Source: a virus
Length of the DNA stretch: 23,150 nt
Strand: one strand, 5' to 3'
Virus record (IMG/VR): IMGVR_UViG_3300025674_000417
Span: 1-23,150 of that record
The notes below the pieces were generated by a model, which was not told where the DNA came from, did not search any database, and worked only from the letters and a program-made list of their open reading frames with translations. Positions 844-21,243 of the stretch are shown here, piece by piece. The stretch's first letter is position 1; every line of letters begins with the position of its first letter. The position numbers were made by a program, and so were the translations under genes.

Positions 844-871
844 TTGACGGCATCCGGGATCGTGCTAAAGT
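844..871 (+). promoter_or_regulatory. Possible sigma70 promoter for the first early transcript
   Basis: TTGACG (844-849), a 16-bp spacer, then TAAAGT (866-871): five of six and four of six consensus matches. A start near 878 would place the hairpins at 928-997 and both hammerhead ribozymes in the transcript. Prediction by eye only; upstream promoters near the LexA-like boxes could also read through. Confidence 0.35.
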
Positions 872-927: not shown

Positions 928-957
928 CCTTGACCCTCGACAGAGGATCGACCAAGG
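928..957 (+). other. Leader RNA hairpin A
   Basis: CCTTG (928-932) pairs with CAAGG (953-957), and inside it CCTC (935-938) pairs with GAGG (943-946) around a GACA loop, with an asymmetric internal loop. It lies in the untranslated leader upstream of the first hammerhead ribozyme. Confidence 0.45.
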
Positions 958-960
958 ATA

Positions 961-997
961 AGAGCCTGAACCGGCAGCAACGACCGGGTGAAGCTCT
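961..997 (+). other. Leader RNA hairpin B, directly before ribozyme 1
   Basis: AGAGC (961-965) pairs with GCTCT (993-997), and CCGG (971-974) can pair with CCGG (984-987). The symmetric internal loop is CTGAA opposite GTGAA. It ends 10 nt before the predicted cleavage site at 1007/1008, so after cleavage it would cap the 3' end of the upstream fragment. The second ribozyme also has a hairpin in the matching position. Confidence 0.5.
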
Positions 998-999
998 CA

Positions 1000-1055
1000 A
1001 TAGTGTCATCGGCTACCAGCCGGTCTGACGAGCTCCAGTAAGAGCGAAACACTAT
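1000..1055 (+). ncRNA. Type III hammerhead ribozyme, copy 1
   Basis: A complete hammerhead fold can be drawn by hand. Stem III is ATAGTG (1000-1005) with CACTAT (1050-1055). The cleavage triplet is GUC (1005-1007), giving predicted cleavage between 1007 and 1008. Stem I is ATCGGC (1008-1013) with GCCGGT (1019-1024), including one U-G pair, and loop TACCA. The first core strand is CTGACGA (1025-1031). Stem II is GCTC (1032-1035) with GAGC (1042-1045), loop CAGTAA. The second core strand is GAAA (1046-1049). All conserved residues (C3 U4 G5 A6 N7 G8 A9, G12 A13 A14, A15.1-U16.1, H17 = C) and the preferred G10.1-C11.1 and C15.2-G16.2 pairs are present. Stem III is the open end, hence type III. 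It sits 20 nt upstream of the ATG at 1076. Self-cleavage is inferred from the motif, not demonstrated. Confidence 0.92.
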
Positions 1056-1075
1056 ACAACAGAGAGACAGAGATA

Positions 1076-1351
1076 ATGACTACATACACAGCAAATGAGC
1101 AGCGAATCTTTAACATGATTGCAGACGAGTCACTGAGCGGAGGCCTTTTGGACGTGTCCGACATTGCCCGAGCCGATGAAATGACAGTAGCCCAGATCAA
1201 GGGCGTTGTATCCTCTCTGGTTCAGAAGGGCCGCATTATGGCCGATGAGGATTGCCTGTGGCCGATCCACAGCGAGTACGGTCCCTGCTTCTGGTGCGAC
1301 TACGTGGCAGAGGGTGAGGAAGAATTTATTACCGACGATGAGGTAGCATAA
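1076..1351 (+). CDS. Small winged-helix-like protein of unknown function
   Basis: 91 aa, starting at ATG 1076 behind a purine-rich AGAGAGACAGAGA ribosome-binding region that follows hammerhead ribozyme 1. Residues about 7-55 have the look of a winged helix-turn-helix: an N-terminal helix, then DVSDIARADEMTVAQIKGVV as the HTH pair and SSLVQKGRI leading into a wing. The C-terminal third is acidic and carries a CFWC pair. The family is not recognised; a DNA-binding regulator is a reasonable guess from the fold pattern. It is the only gene between the two predicted ribozyme cleavage sites, so it would be released as a separate 375-nt message, uncoupled from the rest of the operon. Confidence 0.75.
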   Translation: MTTYTANEQRIFNMIADESLSGGLLDVSDIARADEMTVAQIKGVVSSLVQKGRIMADEDCLWPIHSEYGPCFWCDYVAEGEEEFITDDEVA

Positions 1352-1358
1352 CCACAAA

Positions 1359-1374
1359 GCCCCCACTTGGGGGC
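1359..1374 (+). other. Strong GC hairpin before ribozyme 2
   Basis: GCCCCC (1359-1364), loop ACTT, GGGGGC (1369-1374): a perfect 6-bp stem starting 7 nt after the stop codon of the 91-aa gene. No T-run follows, so it is not a normal intrinsic terminator. It ends 8 nt before the predicted cleavage site at 1382/1383, where it would protect the 3' end of the released message from exonucleases (inference). Confidence 0.7.
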
Positions 1375-1376
1375 AA

Positions 1377-1428
1377 GGTGTCATCGGCAAGCAGCCGGTC
1401 TGACGAGTCCCAGCATGGACGAAACACC
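1377..1428 (+). ncRNA. Type III hammerhead ribozyme, copy 2
   Basis: Second complete hammerhead. Stem III is GGTG (1377-1380) with CACC (1425-1428). The cleavage triplet is GUC (1380-1382), giving predicted cleavage between 1382 and 1383. Stem I is ATCGGC (1383-1388) with GCCGGT (1394-1399), loop AAGCA. The core strand is CTGACGA (1400-1406). Stem II is GTCC (1407-1410) with GGAC (1417-1420), loop CAGCAT. The second core strand is GAAA (1421-1424). Stems II and III differ from copy 1 on both strands while still pairing (GCTC/GAGC against GTCC/GGAC; ATAGTG/CACTAT against GGTG/CACC), which is covariation between the two copies. Stem I is identical in both. The ATG of the 22-aa ORF follows 16 nt later, behind the same type of AGAGAGAGA ribosome-binding region as at copy 1. 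Confidence 0.92.
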
Positions 1429-1444
1429 AAAACAGAGAGAGACA

Positions 1445-1513
1445 ATGAGAGTAACCATCACACAAAACTTTATACTGGCTGCTGTAGTTGTGGCAGCCTT
1501 CATCATTATCTGA
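1445..1513 (+). CDS. 22-aa single-pass membrane peptide
   Basis: ATG 1445, TGA 1511-1513, directly behind hammerhead ribozyme 2 with an AGAGAGAGAC ribosome-binding region. The peptide starts MRVTITQN and continues as an uninterrupted hydrophobic run rich in Ala, Val and Ile to its end, enough for one membrane helix. There is no signal peptidase site. The next gene starts 10 bases later with its own GAGGA. Function unknown; a membrane-acting micro-protein made early in infection is the simplest reading. Too short for homology to help. Confidence 0.6.
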   Translation: MRVTITQNFILAAVVVAAFIII

Positions 1514-2228: not shown

Positions 2229-2428
2229 TCGAAGTTATCGTTAAAGAGTATGACGGATGGTTTGACGTACTGGAAACGGCAGACCTGTATGGAGTGGTTG
2301 ACATGGGCGCCGTCATGGAGGAGATGGACCATGAAAAGTGCAAGAATTGCCGGCTCGACATGGTTGACGCGACCGAGGATTACTGCATGGAAGGGCTGGC
2401 GCGCCTCGGCGTGGTGTTCGAGCTATGA
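2225..2428 (+). CDS. Hypothetical acidic protein with Cys pair
   Basis: 67 aa, ATG 2225 overlapping the upstream stop (ATGA), with GAGG just before it. Strongly acidic. It holds a CKNC motif near the middle and a further Cys later, which could bind a metal, but this is not diagnostic. It shares ATGA with the next tiny ORF, continuing the coupled chain. Function unknown. Confidence 0.65.
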   Translation: MIEVIVKEYDGWFDVLETADLYGVVDMGAVMEEMDHEKCKNCRLDMVDATEDYCMEGLARLGVVFEL

Positions 2429-2517
2429 ACGGATCCAGGACGCGTGTAGAAATACACCTAACACCATATTTACTGTCAGCGGCATTGCTGCTAATGTTCG
2501 CTGACTACTTTATTTAG
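2425..2517 (+). CDS. 30-aa single-pass membrane peptide
   Basis: ATG 2425 overlaps the upstream stop codon (ATGA), and TAG is at 2515-2517. A charged N-terminus (MNGSRTRVEIH) is followed by a hydrophobic stretch, LTPYLLSAALLLMFA, ending DYFI. It fills the otherwise empty gap before the gene at 2532, and the overlap is the start-choice evidence. Similar in design to the 22-aa peptide at 1445 and the 28-aa peptide at 8544. Function unknown. Confidence 0.55.
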   Translation: MNGSRTRVEIHLTPYLLSAALLLMFADYFI

Positions 2518-17122: not shown

Positions 17123-17779
17123 TTACGGTGTGTAGAAGATGGTGTCCTCGGGGTGCAGCGCAGCATCCAGTGCGACCGCATCACCCAGCAGACTCTTGGC
17201 TATCTGGAAGTATTCCTGTGTTGACGTGCCACCAGTCTCGCCGCGCTCACGAGCCGCCAGGGCCAAAGCAAGATGCAGGACAGGCATGTATGGTATCTCA
17301 AGCACATCCGCGTCAGCAGACAGTCGGTCATTCCTGACCACCGCATCGAACCTGATCGTGTACGCTGCATCTGGCAGTGGGTACAGGTCTATCGTCTGGT
17401 CGCCGTTGGAGTCGGTCTCTCCGAAAGTGTAGTAGCGAGGAGCGCCGGAGGTTGATCCATCGATAAAGTACTTCTCATCGAACCAATCCGAAGTCCGGTA
17501 TTCCATCACCCAGTTAGACGTATCATTGATGACGTTGAGCTGCTTGCCCTGCCATCCAGTGCCGGTCAGGGCGTAGTTCTTGGTGCTGGCGACCGTGTTG
17601 ATAGATATGGTAGACCGGAGCGTAGTCCAGTCCCATGCGTTCTCAACCGTGACCTTTGCGTCATTTACAAAGTCCCCGATCAGGGTGCTGTAGTCGCTGC
17701 TCGCAACGGTAGCCACTGTAGGCTCTCTGAGGCGCCTCAGAACGCCGTTTACCAGCTCTAGGTATGTCATTGTTGCCAT
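17123..17779 (-). CDS. Tail adaptor (T7 gp11/P22 gp4-like)
   Basis: 218 aa, start in TAATG overlap with the fibre gene stop. The N-terminus MTYLELVNGVLRRLREPTV plus FVNDAKVTVENAWDWTTLR is the helical signature of head-to-tail adaptor or tail tubular A proteins. It is followed by a beta insertion (GAPRYYTFGE, IDLYPLPDAAYTIRFDAVV) and a C-terminal helix (HLALALAARERG). It would ring the portal and carry the nozzle protein. Normal length for the family. Confidence 0.85.
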   Translation of the reverse strand: MATMTYLELVNGVLRRLREPTVATVASSDYSTLIGDFVNDAKVTVENAWDWTTLRSTISINTVASTKNYALTGTGWQGKQLNVINDTSNWVMEYRTSDWFDEKYFIDGSTSGAPRYYTFGETDSNGDQTIDLYPLPDAAYTIRFDAVVRNDRLSADADVLEIPYMPVLHLALALAARERGETGGTSTQEYFQIAKSLLGDAVALDAALHPEDTIFYTP

Positions 17780-20700
17780 TATATCATGTCCTTGAATAAG
17801 CTCTTGGAGATCATGCGCTCCAGGTCAGCCATTGGATCACCGACCTTGTATATTACACTCTGGAGAGGGCTGTAGTCAACCCCGATGCCGCCTGTAAACA
17901 TACCGCCACGACCGCCGCCAGGGGCGCCATCAGCGCCATCAGCACCATCTTGACCATCGGCACCGTCCCGGCCATCAGCACCATCTTGACCATCGGCACC
18001 GTCCCGGCCATCCTGACCATCTTGACCATCGGCACCGTCCCGACCATCTTGACCATCTTGGCCGTCCTGACCGTCTTGGCCGTCCTGACCATCTTGGCCG
18101 TCGACACCATCCTTCCCGTCTTGGCCGTCTTGACCGTCGACGCCATCCTTGCCGTCCTGACCGTCTTGGCCGTCCTGACCGTCTTGGCCGTCTTGACCAT
18201 CCTGGCCGTCCCGACCGTCATTCCCATCCTGACCGTCCCGACCGTCATTCCCATCCTGGCCATCTTGCCCGGCACTCCCGTCCTGACCATCTTGACCATC
18301 TTGACCGTCTTGACCATTTTGACCGTTGGCGCCATCCTGGCCATCAGCACCATCTTGGCCGTCTTGGCCGTCGTTAGCAGAACCATCACTGGAGCCATCA
18401 TTCGAACCGTCATTCGAACCGTCATTCGAACCGTCATTCGAACCGTCATTTGAGCCGTCATTTGAGCCGTCATTTGAGCCGTCATTTGAGCCGTCAGAGG
18501 AGTCGTCTACAGAGCCGTCAGATGAGTCGTCAGTGGAGCCGTTAGCGGAGTCGTCTACAGAACCGTCAGCCGAGTCATCAGCGGAGTCGTCTGCGGAACC
18601 GTCAGATGATTCTTCGCCCTCACCTTCCGTGATATCGCCCTCACCTTCCGGGGTTTCGGTCTCGTCACCTTCCTCGGCATCCTCACCCTCACCCGGGCTC
18701 AGGTCTACAGAATCGTCGGATGAGCCATCTCCGCCATCGTCCCCGCCAGCGTCCCCGCCAGCATCTCCTCCAGTGTCTCCACCGGATTCTTCGCTAGAGT
18801 CTCCGCCGGCACCGGGTTCTTCAAAGATATCGCCGCCCGAGCTGTAATCAGGAACCTCTATCAAGCCGCCTTCGACGTTGGCCAGGATCAGGTCCTTCAG
18901 CCAGCTAGATGCATCCTCTGGACCAATCATCCCCTTCAGAAGCTCCCACGGGGCGCCTACGATGGAACCGATCTTCTCTAGGGCGGTAGCATCCTCGCTG
19001 CCCCAGATGCTGCCAATCTCCTCAGCAGCGCCCAGAACGGCGTCCTTAATGTCCTGTAGAGGCTTTGTTGCCGCGTCAATAACGCCGCCAGCGATCTCTC
19101 CAGCAGGGAGCCAATCGCCTTGCTCGTTGGTCAGGGGTATCTCCGCAGGGTCTCCGGGGATACCAGGAATCGCCAAGATCAGGGTCTTTGTGAAACCGCC
19201 GTCCGGGCTCTCCACGGGGGAGACTCTCACCCCGACAATGGAGCCTGGAGCAACCCAGTTCTCAAGGTCCTCTCCAGTCGGGATTGCGCCCTCAAGGATG
19301 TCCACTATGCCGGCAGGAAGCTCGCTCGCGCTATCCAGAACCCCGCCCAATGCGCCCTTGATCTGCTCAAGAATGCCTGCGTTCTCAGGGTTGGCCAGAT
19401 CTTCACCGGAGATAGTACCTCCGTTATCCACCCAATCCCATGTTCCAGTGTCCGTATTCCACTGGTACTCGCCTGTCCCGCTCAGAATTGGCGGAGCTTC
19501 GTTTACGCCCTCAACCCATTCGTAATCCTGCATTTCAGGATCCCACTGCCACTCGCCGGTCGGGCTAATAGGTTGCGGTGGGTCGAAGAATGCGCCGTCA
19601 CCCTCCAGATCCGGGTCCGCCACCAGATCTTGATATTGAGCCCACTCCTGGTCGCTCACTACGCCGTTACCGTCTAGGTCGGCCTCTGGGTGTGTGGCAT
19701 TCACATAGTCGATATGGGCGAGAGCTTCCTCAAGCGTATTGATGTTGTTGTCGCTCGCGATCAGGTCGTCAATAACGCTCTGCCACTCATCGGGGTACAC
19801 GTCGGTGGGTTGGTCTTGCGTTTCATCCGGGCCTGGAGTCTCGTCGGTTTCAGGCGAGTCCGTCACAGAGTCGTTAAGGATCTCCTCCAGGCTCTCGTCT
19901 GCGTCAGGGGTGTCCTGTATGTCTAGCAACCAGTTTACCTGATCCTGGTTCAGCCCCTGCTCCTTCAGCTTTTCCGGGTCCAGCTCTCCAGCCTCGTATA
20001 GCGCCTTGAGGTCTTGGCGCATAGCGAGCGTGCCAATGGGGATTCCGGCAATCATCACGGGGTCGAGATCCATCTCGCCGCCCTTCTCGCCAGTGCCAAA
20101 GATGACGTCGTAGATTGGGCTCATGTCGGCGGAGTCTGAACCAACAAGCACCCAGTTTCCGTTAGAGTCCTGCACCGGCAAGCCAATAACCGCATCCGAT
20201 CCTGACGTGCTCCCGCTAGATGACCCTGTGTAATCGCCCCCGCTTCCCGCTGTAGCTTCCCTGACTGCGTCGAGGTAGCCCTGGAAGATTTCGTTCATGG
20301 TTGCGTTGGGGTCTACGTTGGGGTCGGCCAGGATGGCATCTACAACGTCTTGCTGAGTGTAGTCTGGGGGCAGGTTGGTCCACCAGCCTGTTGGGCTTGA
20401 GGAGCCCCCTGAAGCGCCTCCCGTTGTACCGCCGCCGGTAGTCGAGCCTGTTGCTGCGCCGCCGGTAGTCGAGCCTGCCGTGGGCATGAGAGCGCTGATC
20501 ACCTGTTGCGCTACCGGGCCGCTAAGCATTCCGCTGCCCACTGCCGCGCCCAGCTTTTGAGTCCACTGCTGCCCATACCCGGCATCCGCGCCCTTGTTGA
20601 GCATCCAAGTGACCCACTCGTCGGCAGATATGGTGCCGTCGCTGTTAGCGTCCCCGCCGTCACGAGAGATTCGAGTGTAGTCGTCTTGAGTGAACGCCTT

Positions 20701-21243
20701 GTTGTCGCCAGGGCGGAAGCCGTAGTTAGTCTGCGAGGCGGGTTGGCTGTTTACTGGCGCACCGTATATATCGTTATACATGGCCTGCACTTGCTCCCGC
20801 TGAGCGCCGGACAGGGATTGTATGCCTGTACCCAGGGCATTTTGCAGTTTGCTGTAGTTCTCCGGGTTTGCTGCCCAGCCAGACGTCCATCTGTCAGAGT
20901 CAGCGCCAAAACTTAGCTGATATGCAGCCCATTCCTCCGGGGTGATAACGCCGTCAGCAGTGGACTGAGGGTTCCATGCAGTGTACCGATCTACCGTGGC
21001 CTGATTGTACTCCTGGCCCGTGCCGGGGTTGATGCCGTAGCTCTGCTGCTGCTGCGTGAGCATGCCGCCTTGGTTGGCATCCGCGTAACTTCCGCCCCCG
21101 TATGAGCTGATGGTGTCGTTGAGGCCGAGATCGATAAAACTCCCGCCCCCGTCAAGCCTTATGAGCGTATCGCCATACAGCTCGTATGTGCCGCTATCGC
21201 CTGTACCGCTTCCTGATGCCCCCGGTGCTCTCTGTGCACTCAT
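17779..21243 (-). CDS. Asp-rich tail fibre with EF-hand-like loops and collagen-like tract
   Basis: 1154 aa, ATG at 21243. Three EF-hand-type calcium loops: a degenerate one at about 93-104 (ADGVITPEE), a perfect one at 198-209 (D-x-N-x-D-G-x-I-S-x-x-E), and a perfect one at about 520-531 ([12 protein letters not shown]), each followed by a Trp helix start. A Gly/Ser/Thr linker lies near 250-285. Two copies of a G-E-W/Y-Q-W-(D/N) repeat (about 560-615) follow. After a hydrophobic, Gly/Pro-poor region comes a Ser/Asp/Gly tract with eight NDGS units, then an uninterrupted Gly-X-Y collagen-like tract (about 955-1105) rich in Asp-Gly-Gln. A short C-terminal end of about 50 aa follows. Probably a trimeric, calcium-stabilised fibre or tail appendage; there is no obvious receptor-binding end domain or pyocin-type knob. 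Confidence 0.75.
17926..18380 (-). repeat. Collagen-like low-complexity tract in fibre gene
   Basis: A tract built from 9-bp units read as Gly-X-Y on the - strand ([18 protein letters not shown]). On the + strand this shows as repeats such as CCATCTTGA, CCGTCTTGG and CCGTCCTGA. Such DNA is open in all frames, which explains long false ORFs on both strands here. Prone to recombination and slippage in steps of 9 bp. Confidence 0.85.
18399..18494 (-). repeat. Eight tandem 12-bp units encoding NDGS
   Basis: Four exact copies of CATTCGAACCGT (18399-18446) are followed by four exact copies of CATTTGAGCCGT (18447-18494). The two sub-types differ at two synonymous positions. Each unit encodes one Asn-Asp-Gly-Ser (phase dependent). 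Block homogenisation within each sub-type indicates recent copy-number change. Confidence 0.9.

Follow-up and report, generated by a model that had tools for sequence, protein, structure and literature searches.

The window analysed here, a 23,150-nt stretch of viral DNA (IMG/VR record IMGVR_UViG_3300025674_000417, positions 1 to 23,150), carries two genuine type III hammerhead ribozymes, HHR1 and HHR2, whose cleavage is predicted from sequence. Comparison of their relatives suggests a simple design rule, read from sequence alone, that relates the type of a hammerhead to the presence of an extra hairpin upstream of it. The pair itself belongs to an already known kind; the hairpin rule is the part worth testing. 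The hammerheads likely cleave and process early RNA, and we consider it moderately probable that they would divide a polycistronic early RNA into one message per gene, with a hairpin closing each of the new 3′ and 5′ ends. We infer that these ends would be protected and that the phage would benefit.

The hammerhead pair and its surroundings

Both copies contain CTGACGA, GAAA and the GTC cleavage triplet with the U16.1–A15.1 pair, and in both three stems meet at this core, with stem III open and stems I and II closed by loops, as in type III. The layout is ATAGTGTC/ATCGGCTACCAGCCGGT-CTGACGA-GCTCCAGTAAGAGC-GAA-ACACTAT for HHR1 and GGTGTC/ATCGGCAAGCAGCCGGT-CTGACGA-GTCCCAGCATGGAC-GAA-ACACC for HHR2, the slash marking the predicted cut (after 1007 and 1382, respectively). 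The minimum-energy fold of each is the hammerhead; in HHR2 the outer two pairs of stem III are unformed. When the whole window was searched against all 4227 Rfam families, Hammerhead_3 (RF00008) aligned full-length to HHR1 (E-value 1.4e-5) and HHR2 (0.0017), and no other family reached E ≤ 0.5. The window copies share the topology and core of this family but deviate from its consensus in their loops (loop I ANC, loop II CAGTA), and they score under its gathering score of 48.5, which is a database cut-off and not a chemical criterion; a scan at gathering level by itself misses both. These low scores are what could suggest chance or decayed look-alikes, a reading that we find scarcely credible, given the full core in both copies, the covariation and conserved place in relatives, and a strict structural test in which 1000 dinucleotide shuffles of the window yielded one hammerhead in total. 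The earlier claim of two complete type III hammerheads is thus borne out by core, fold, full-length Rfam matches and shuffles. Across six relatives, the loop I ANC and the loop II C-G-A positions, which may take part in a tertiary contact between the two loops, are invariant.

HHR1 and HHR2 are co-oriented and lie 375 nt apart with a single ORF between them, in a virus record with phage genes (Table 1). The start codon at 1076 is 20 nt past HHR1 and that at 1445 is 14 nt past HHR2, with ACAGAGAGACAG or a similar sequence in between. Genes for a RecE-like exonuclease, a Sak annealing protein, a helicase and a NinG-like protein follow downstream, which supports the placement of the hammerheads as 5′-UTR modules of consecutive early genes. 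The ORFs behind the two hammerheads had been described as unrelated; they do differ, but the one behind HHR2 is merely 22 codons long. The candidate promoter has similar spacing in relatives by eye, and the evidence for it is weak because three promoter-like sites were seen against 2.3 expected. Leader hairpin 1 has an inner stem of CTCC/GGAG in L013 and L004, two compensating pairs from only two distinct relatives, and leader hairpin 2 is kept in L013 and less perfect in L004.

Table 1 Features around the hammerhead pair (window coordinates)
Feature	Position	Strand	Basis and remarks
Candidate sigma-70-like promoter, TTGACG-16-TAAAGT, TG before the -10	844-871	+	consensus scan; transcript start would lie near 877
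Leader hairpin 1, CCTTG...CAAGG with inner CCTC/GAGG stem	928-957	+	sequence; on the leader that the first cleavage would release
Leader hairpin 2, AGAGC...GCTCT, ending just 5′ of HHR1	961-997	+	fold
HHR1, type III hammerhead	1000-1055	+	Rfam RF00008 (39.8 bits), fold, relatives, covariation; predicted cut 1007/1008
Purine-rich ribosome binding region	1056-1075	+	sequence; conserved behind hammerheads in relatives
91-aa ORF behind HHR1	1076-1351	+	matches no family; its relatives in L045/L046 are not preceded by a hammerhead
Hairpin GCCCCCACTTGGGGGC (GCCCCC/GGGGGC), directly 5′ of HHR2	1359-1374	+	fold, -16 kcal/mol; potential 3′-end closure for the upstream message
HHR2, type III hammerhead	1375-1430	+	Rfam RF00008 (32.4 bits), fold, covariation; predicted cut 1382/1383
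Purine-rich ribosome binding region ACAGAGAGAGAC	1431-1444	+	sequence
22-codon hydrophobic peptide ORF MRVTITQNFILAAVVVAAFIII, behind HHR2	1445-1513	+	sequence
30-aa hydrophobic ORF, no hammerhead in front	2425-2517	+	shares 73% identity with the ORF that the last L010 hammerhead precedes

Three further observations concern the rest of the window. Non-coding short repeats (TTAGCGGATTTGACC, GTGAGATTGACC and similar) at 170–310 are possibly origin iterons. The repeated palindrome-like CAGTACTGTACAGCCATACAGT (370–460 and 610–640), 5′ of the early promoter, is operator-like and partly kept in L013. On the minus strand, 17779–21243 encodes a tail-fibre-like protein of 1154 aa, whose long QDGQDG and SNDG repeats are collagen-like.

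Covariation and gene linkage in close relatives

A search of IMG/VR with a pattern of stem I and the core retrieved four more contigs. L003, its near-duplicate L006, and L004 have the leader in common with the window and a single hammerhead at the operon head, and L005/L010 (contig G003, made up of L010 and L047) holds two intact hammerheads 359 nt apart and a third without its 5′ half. The GC hairpin of the window also precedes both intact L010 copies, the last of which likewise stands before a small hydrophobic ORF. In the three gene-following copies the hairpin flank is predicted to pair with the stem III strand in a 3-bp CAC/GUG clamp, too short to carry an argument. The third hammerhead (L010 4815–4867, minus strand) keeps stem II, the 3′ half of the core and the ribosome binding region (96% identical to HHR1) and has lost the cleavage-site strand, and it looks like a recombination scar. 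Because no partner strand was recognised by eye, we rejected a permuted form for the L005 half hammerhead and regard it as a remnant. L007 and 17 stretches besides L005 that matched a hairpin-plus-GGTGTC pattern have no hammerhead of the window's kind and were judged chance matches; L028, among the latter, carries four type II hammerheads. DNA-level relatives in cultured phages and helicase relatives in genomes were not found, nor was the same module in bacterial genomes by pattern search.

The related contigs keep the core and alter stems I and II in compensating fashion. Within this lineage (six sequences) 7 of 18 pairs are changed on both sides, as against no double changes once partners are slid by 1–3 columns. 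Stem II occurs as GCTC/GAGC, GTCC/GGAC, GCTA/TAGC, GCCA/TGGC and GCCG/CGGC, and one copy has a stem I of wholly different sequence that still pairs (TACAGCT/AGCTGTA). The first-pass annotation had taken stem I and the core to be fixed and had argued for selection on the RNA fold: the former is true of the two window copies, but stem I varies with compensation in relatives, and the strong covariation there upholds the latter.

Presence of the module does not follow presence of the gene. L004 has lost the second hammerhead and retains its upstream hairpin and GGTG, and in L013 that hammerhead and its hairpin are both gone. The 30-aa hydrophobic ORF has a hammerhead in front of it in G003 and none in the window. 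Helicase relatives with 60–77% identity have no hammerhead in the stretches examined, from which we conclude that the module is dispensable; at the same place in L015–L023, other ribozyme classes gave no Rfam match at gathering level, and these stretches match neither of the models R1 and R2 (R2 was built from 66 hammerheads). A link to a particular gene was rejected, since same-gene relatives occur without the hammerhead and G003 shares little else with the window. Relatives with the same genes and no core nucleotides had initially been regarded as evidence against the ribozymes; such cases occur (L004, L013, L045/L046, and the 30-aa ORF in the window), and they imply that the module is not bound to a given gene rather than that the ribozyme is spurious. 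Gene-by-gene presence and loss, together with the G003 comparison, point to a module that passes between phages which are otherwise unrelated, and that is open to loss.

Such mobility might mean that the repeated sequence serves as a cassette boundary that aids gene exchange by recombination, or is a small mobile piece, with cleavage incidental. DNA-level overlap between G003 and the window is indeed confined to the hammerhead modules and the 30-aa ORF, different ORFs stand behind the hammerheads, and the 5′-truncated L010 and 3′-lost L004 copies resemble exchange scars. However, stems that change with compensation around a fixed core argue that the fold is selected and not the DNA sequence, and we consider this explanation improbable beside the processing of early RNA.

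Placement and hairpins across phages

A looser pattern (GTGTC...CTGANGAG...CGAAACAC) that demanded no context was run against IMG/VR, so that the sample depends on a single stem III sequence, and R2 was built mostly from the loci so retrieved. In the 66 phage type III hammerheads of the R2 set, double-changed cells number 349, versus 98 in shuffles (15 of 18 pairs). With R2 we counted at least 128 confident type III hammerheads in at least 111 viral loci, 16 of which hold two or three. Removal of redundancy, by shared 8-mers only, leaves 74 among the matches listed; in 72 of these an ORF starts 5–45 nt downstream (median 17), the loci being cropped and the gene calls simple ORFs. An ATG with a Shine-Dalgarno sequence accompanies 47 of these 74, again among the matches listed, versus 81 of 2280 random places (4%; Fisher 1.6e-44), and on the opposite strand 1 of 76 among the matches listed.

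Our own structural finder identified at least 42 type II hammerheads in the loci examined, and runs reach at least ten hammerheads in one contig, one per gene and all on one strand. L075 (IMG/VR contig 3300047297_000136, 9100–13550, minus strand) has one type III followed by nine type II hammerheads over 4.3 kb, one between each consecutive gene pair; the type II count is from our finder, and Rfam backs just part of these copies, weakly. L079 carries five hammerheads, and L077, L102, L103 and L140 carry four each, the type II numbers again being those of our finder. For Streptomyces phage Alvy (L165, NC_054669.1; 42560–51528, minus strand) Rfam lists eleven type II hammerheads, ten above cut-off, and our rigid finder recovers five of the eleven. 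Of the 18 loci that combine the two types among the matches listed, 17 have type III as their 5′-most hammerhead; several of the 18 are closely related to one another, and the number of independent cases is accordingly lower.

Stem III of a type III hammerhead is open, so the upstream cleavage product would end bare, and from this reasoning we predicted that type III hammerheads located behind a gene would have an extra hairpin in front and that type II would not. The prediction was made before the data were split; an overall excess of hairpins upstream of type III had been seen earlier. A hairpin was scored at a folding z < -2 in the 43 nt upstream, and a type III hammerhead counted as gene-following if a stop codon lay ≤60 nt upstream. 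Among the matches listed, the extra hairpin precedes 18 of 37 gene-following type III hammerheads, compared with 3 of 26 type III that lack an upstream gene (Fisher 0.003), 1 of 27 type II located behind a gene (Fisher 7e-5) and 38 of 302 other gene ends (Fisher 1e-6); about half of the gene-following type III copies in this set have no significant upstream hairpin. HHR2 fits the rule, as the GCCCCC/GGGGGC hairpin ends directly before it. Type II hammerheads adjoin or overlap the upstream stop codon, mostly at -3 to 0 nt, which we attribute to their own stem III, the hairpin that would remain at the 3′ end of the upstream piece. In L075, the stop codon of a gene often lies partly within the following type II hammerhead (TAGGTCGAAACC). 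Of the hairpins listed, at least three (L061, L067, L072), each situated directly before a type III hammerhead, have a T run behind them and look terminator-like.

The same placement could reflect natural insulation, in which each gene receives a fixed 5′ end and an exposed ribosome binding site, translation becomes independent of the leader or neighbouring gene (as with the synthetic RiboJ), and end protection is secondary. The constant start-codon distance of about 17 nt in unrelated phages (among the matches listed) is consistent with this, as are the removal of the whole leader by HHR1 and a ribosome binding site that is mostly unpaired in the predicted cleavage product. Insulation leaves the extra hairpin on the upstream side, and its absence before type II, unexplained, and on balance we think it unlikely as the main role, less so than a cassette boundary.

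Proposed processing and known counterparts

Under our preferred reading, the cutting of early RNA into hairpin-closed messages, HHR1 and HHR2 would both cut in the nascent early transcript as the RNA emerges. The HHR1 cut would release a leader of about 130 nt with two hairpins, and the HHR2 cut would separate gene 1 (91 aa) from gene 2 (22 codons), yielding, without any protein enzyme, the leader, a gene 1 message of about 375 nt (1008–1382) and a downstream message. Each downstream piece would begin with a 5′-OH directly followed by the stem I hairpin, its ribosome binding site lying 50–60 nt beyond, and the gene 1 piece would end in the GC hairpin, 8 nt and a 2′,3′-cyclic phosphate. Type II cleavage would leave the stem III hairpin on the upstream 3′ end and the stem I hairpin on the downstream 5′ end. 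Each early gene would thereby obtain its own message, with closed ends that should be poor substrates for 5′-end-dependent RNase E and for 3′ exonucleases, and translation would be uncoupled from upstream sequence. 5′-hydroxylated RNA is poorly cut via the 5′ sensor of RNase E, and E. coli seemingly has no kinase for the 5′-OH that hammerheads make (PMC4191395). Against this reading stand the dispensability of the module, the gene-following type III copies with no significant upstream hairpin, and the terminator-like hairpins; moreover, RNase E also cuts by direct entry, for which the 5′ end is not needed (PMC4191395), and the host of this phage may not use RNase E. More broadly, and tentatively, many phages may run ribozyme-delimited operons in which each early gene has its own message with both ends hairpin-closed, type III standing at the head and type II, or type III with a hairpin, between genes.

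The excised 375-nt RNA, with its 5′-OH and cyclic phosphate, might instead circularise and, in that form, encode the 91-aa protein. Its end chemistry would fit ligation by an RtcB-type enzyme or by a reverse hammerhead reaction, and in the G003 pair joining of the ends would restore a hammerhead at the junction. The junction of the window pair folds otherwise, not as a hammerhead, so circular RNA is not supported for this pair, whose ribozyme-bounded unit may or may not be comparable with those of retrozymes and viroid-like RNAs, which circularise and replicate or retrotranspose. Perreault et al. (2011) detected neither circles nor spliced products when they looked for them with tandem phage hammerheads (PMC3088659), and we hold circles to be very improbable.

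The first-pass annotation had considered a duplicated pair on consecutive early genes undescribed, which does not hold. Perreault et al. report multiple hammerheads flanking individual genes in prophages, with three tandem sets cleaving in vitro and, for Agrobacterium, cleavage in vivo in E. coli, and they propose processing to single-gene messages (PMC3088659). Those clusters (Agrobacterium, Azorhizobium and Clostridium scindens) resemble the window in having several hammerheads per transcript that flank single, varied genes, but they belong to different phages; the text searched makes no mention of an extra 5′ hairpin at gene-following type III hammerheads or of a fixed start-codon distance (PMC3088659). 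As described there, HHphage of haloviruses HF1/HF2 is also a hammerhead near an early-gene start codon, 13 nt upstream of a helicase gene, with a mapped transcript 5′ end ≤3 nt from the cut; unlike the window pair, it is a single copy with a variant core and an archaeal host (PMC3088659). According to Weinberg's group, hammerheads are over-represented in the vicinity of Mu-like phage genes and of other ribozymes (PMC10085705), and a review by De la Pena notes the phage link and treats the role of hammerheads in prokaryotes as open (PMC6155905). Our search of the open-access literature found no statement of a start-codon distance or hairpin rule. The fixed place, an extra hairpin only where a bare 3′ end is expected, and type II hammerheads that abut stop codons together offer a concrete and cheap hypothesis on this role. 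If true, such processing would parallel, without a protein, the cleavage of T7 early messages by RNase III, and it would amount to a natural form of the insulators employed in synthetic biology.

The type II arrays of Alvy and L075 resemble the window in that one hammerhead lies between consecutive operon genes with a start codon shortly downstream; they differ in type, and it is stem III itself that would stay behind as a hairpin at the 3′ end of the upstream piece. Such arrays are borne by cultured phages of Streptomyces lividans, Alvy among them, whose hammerheads sit among small hypothetical genes, two of the predicted cuts being only about 70 nt apart.
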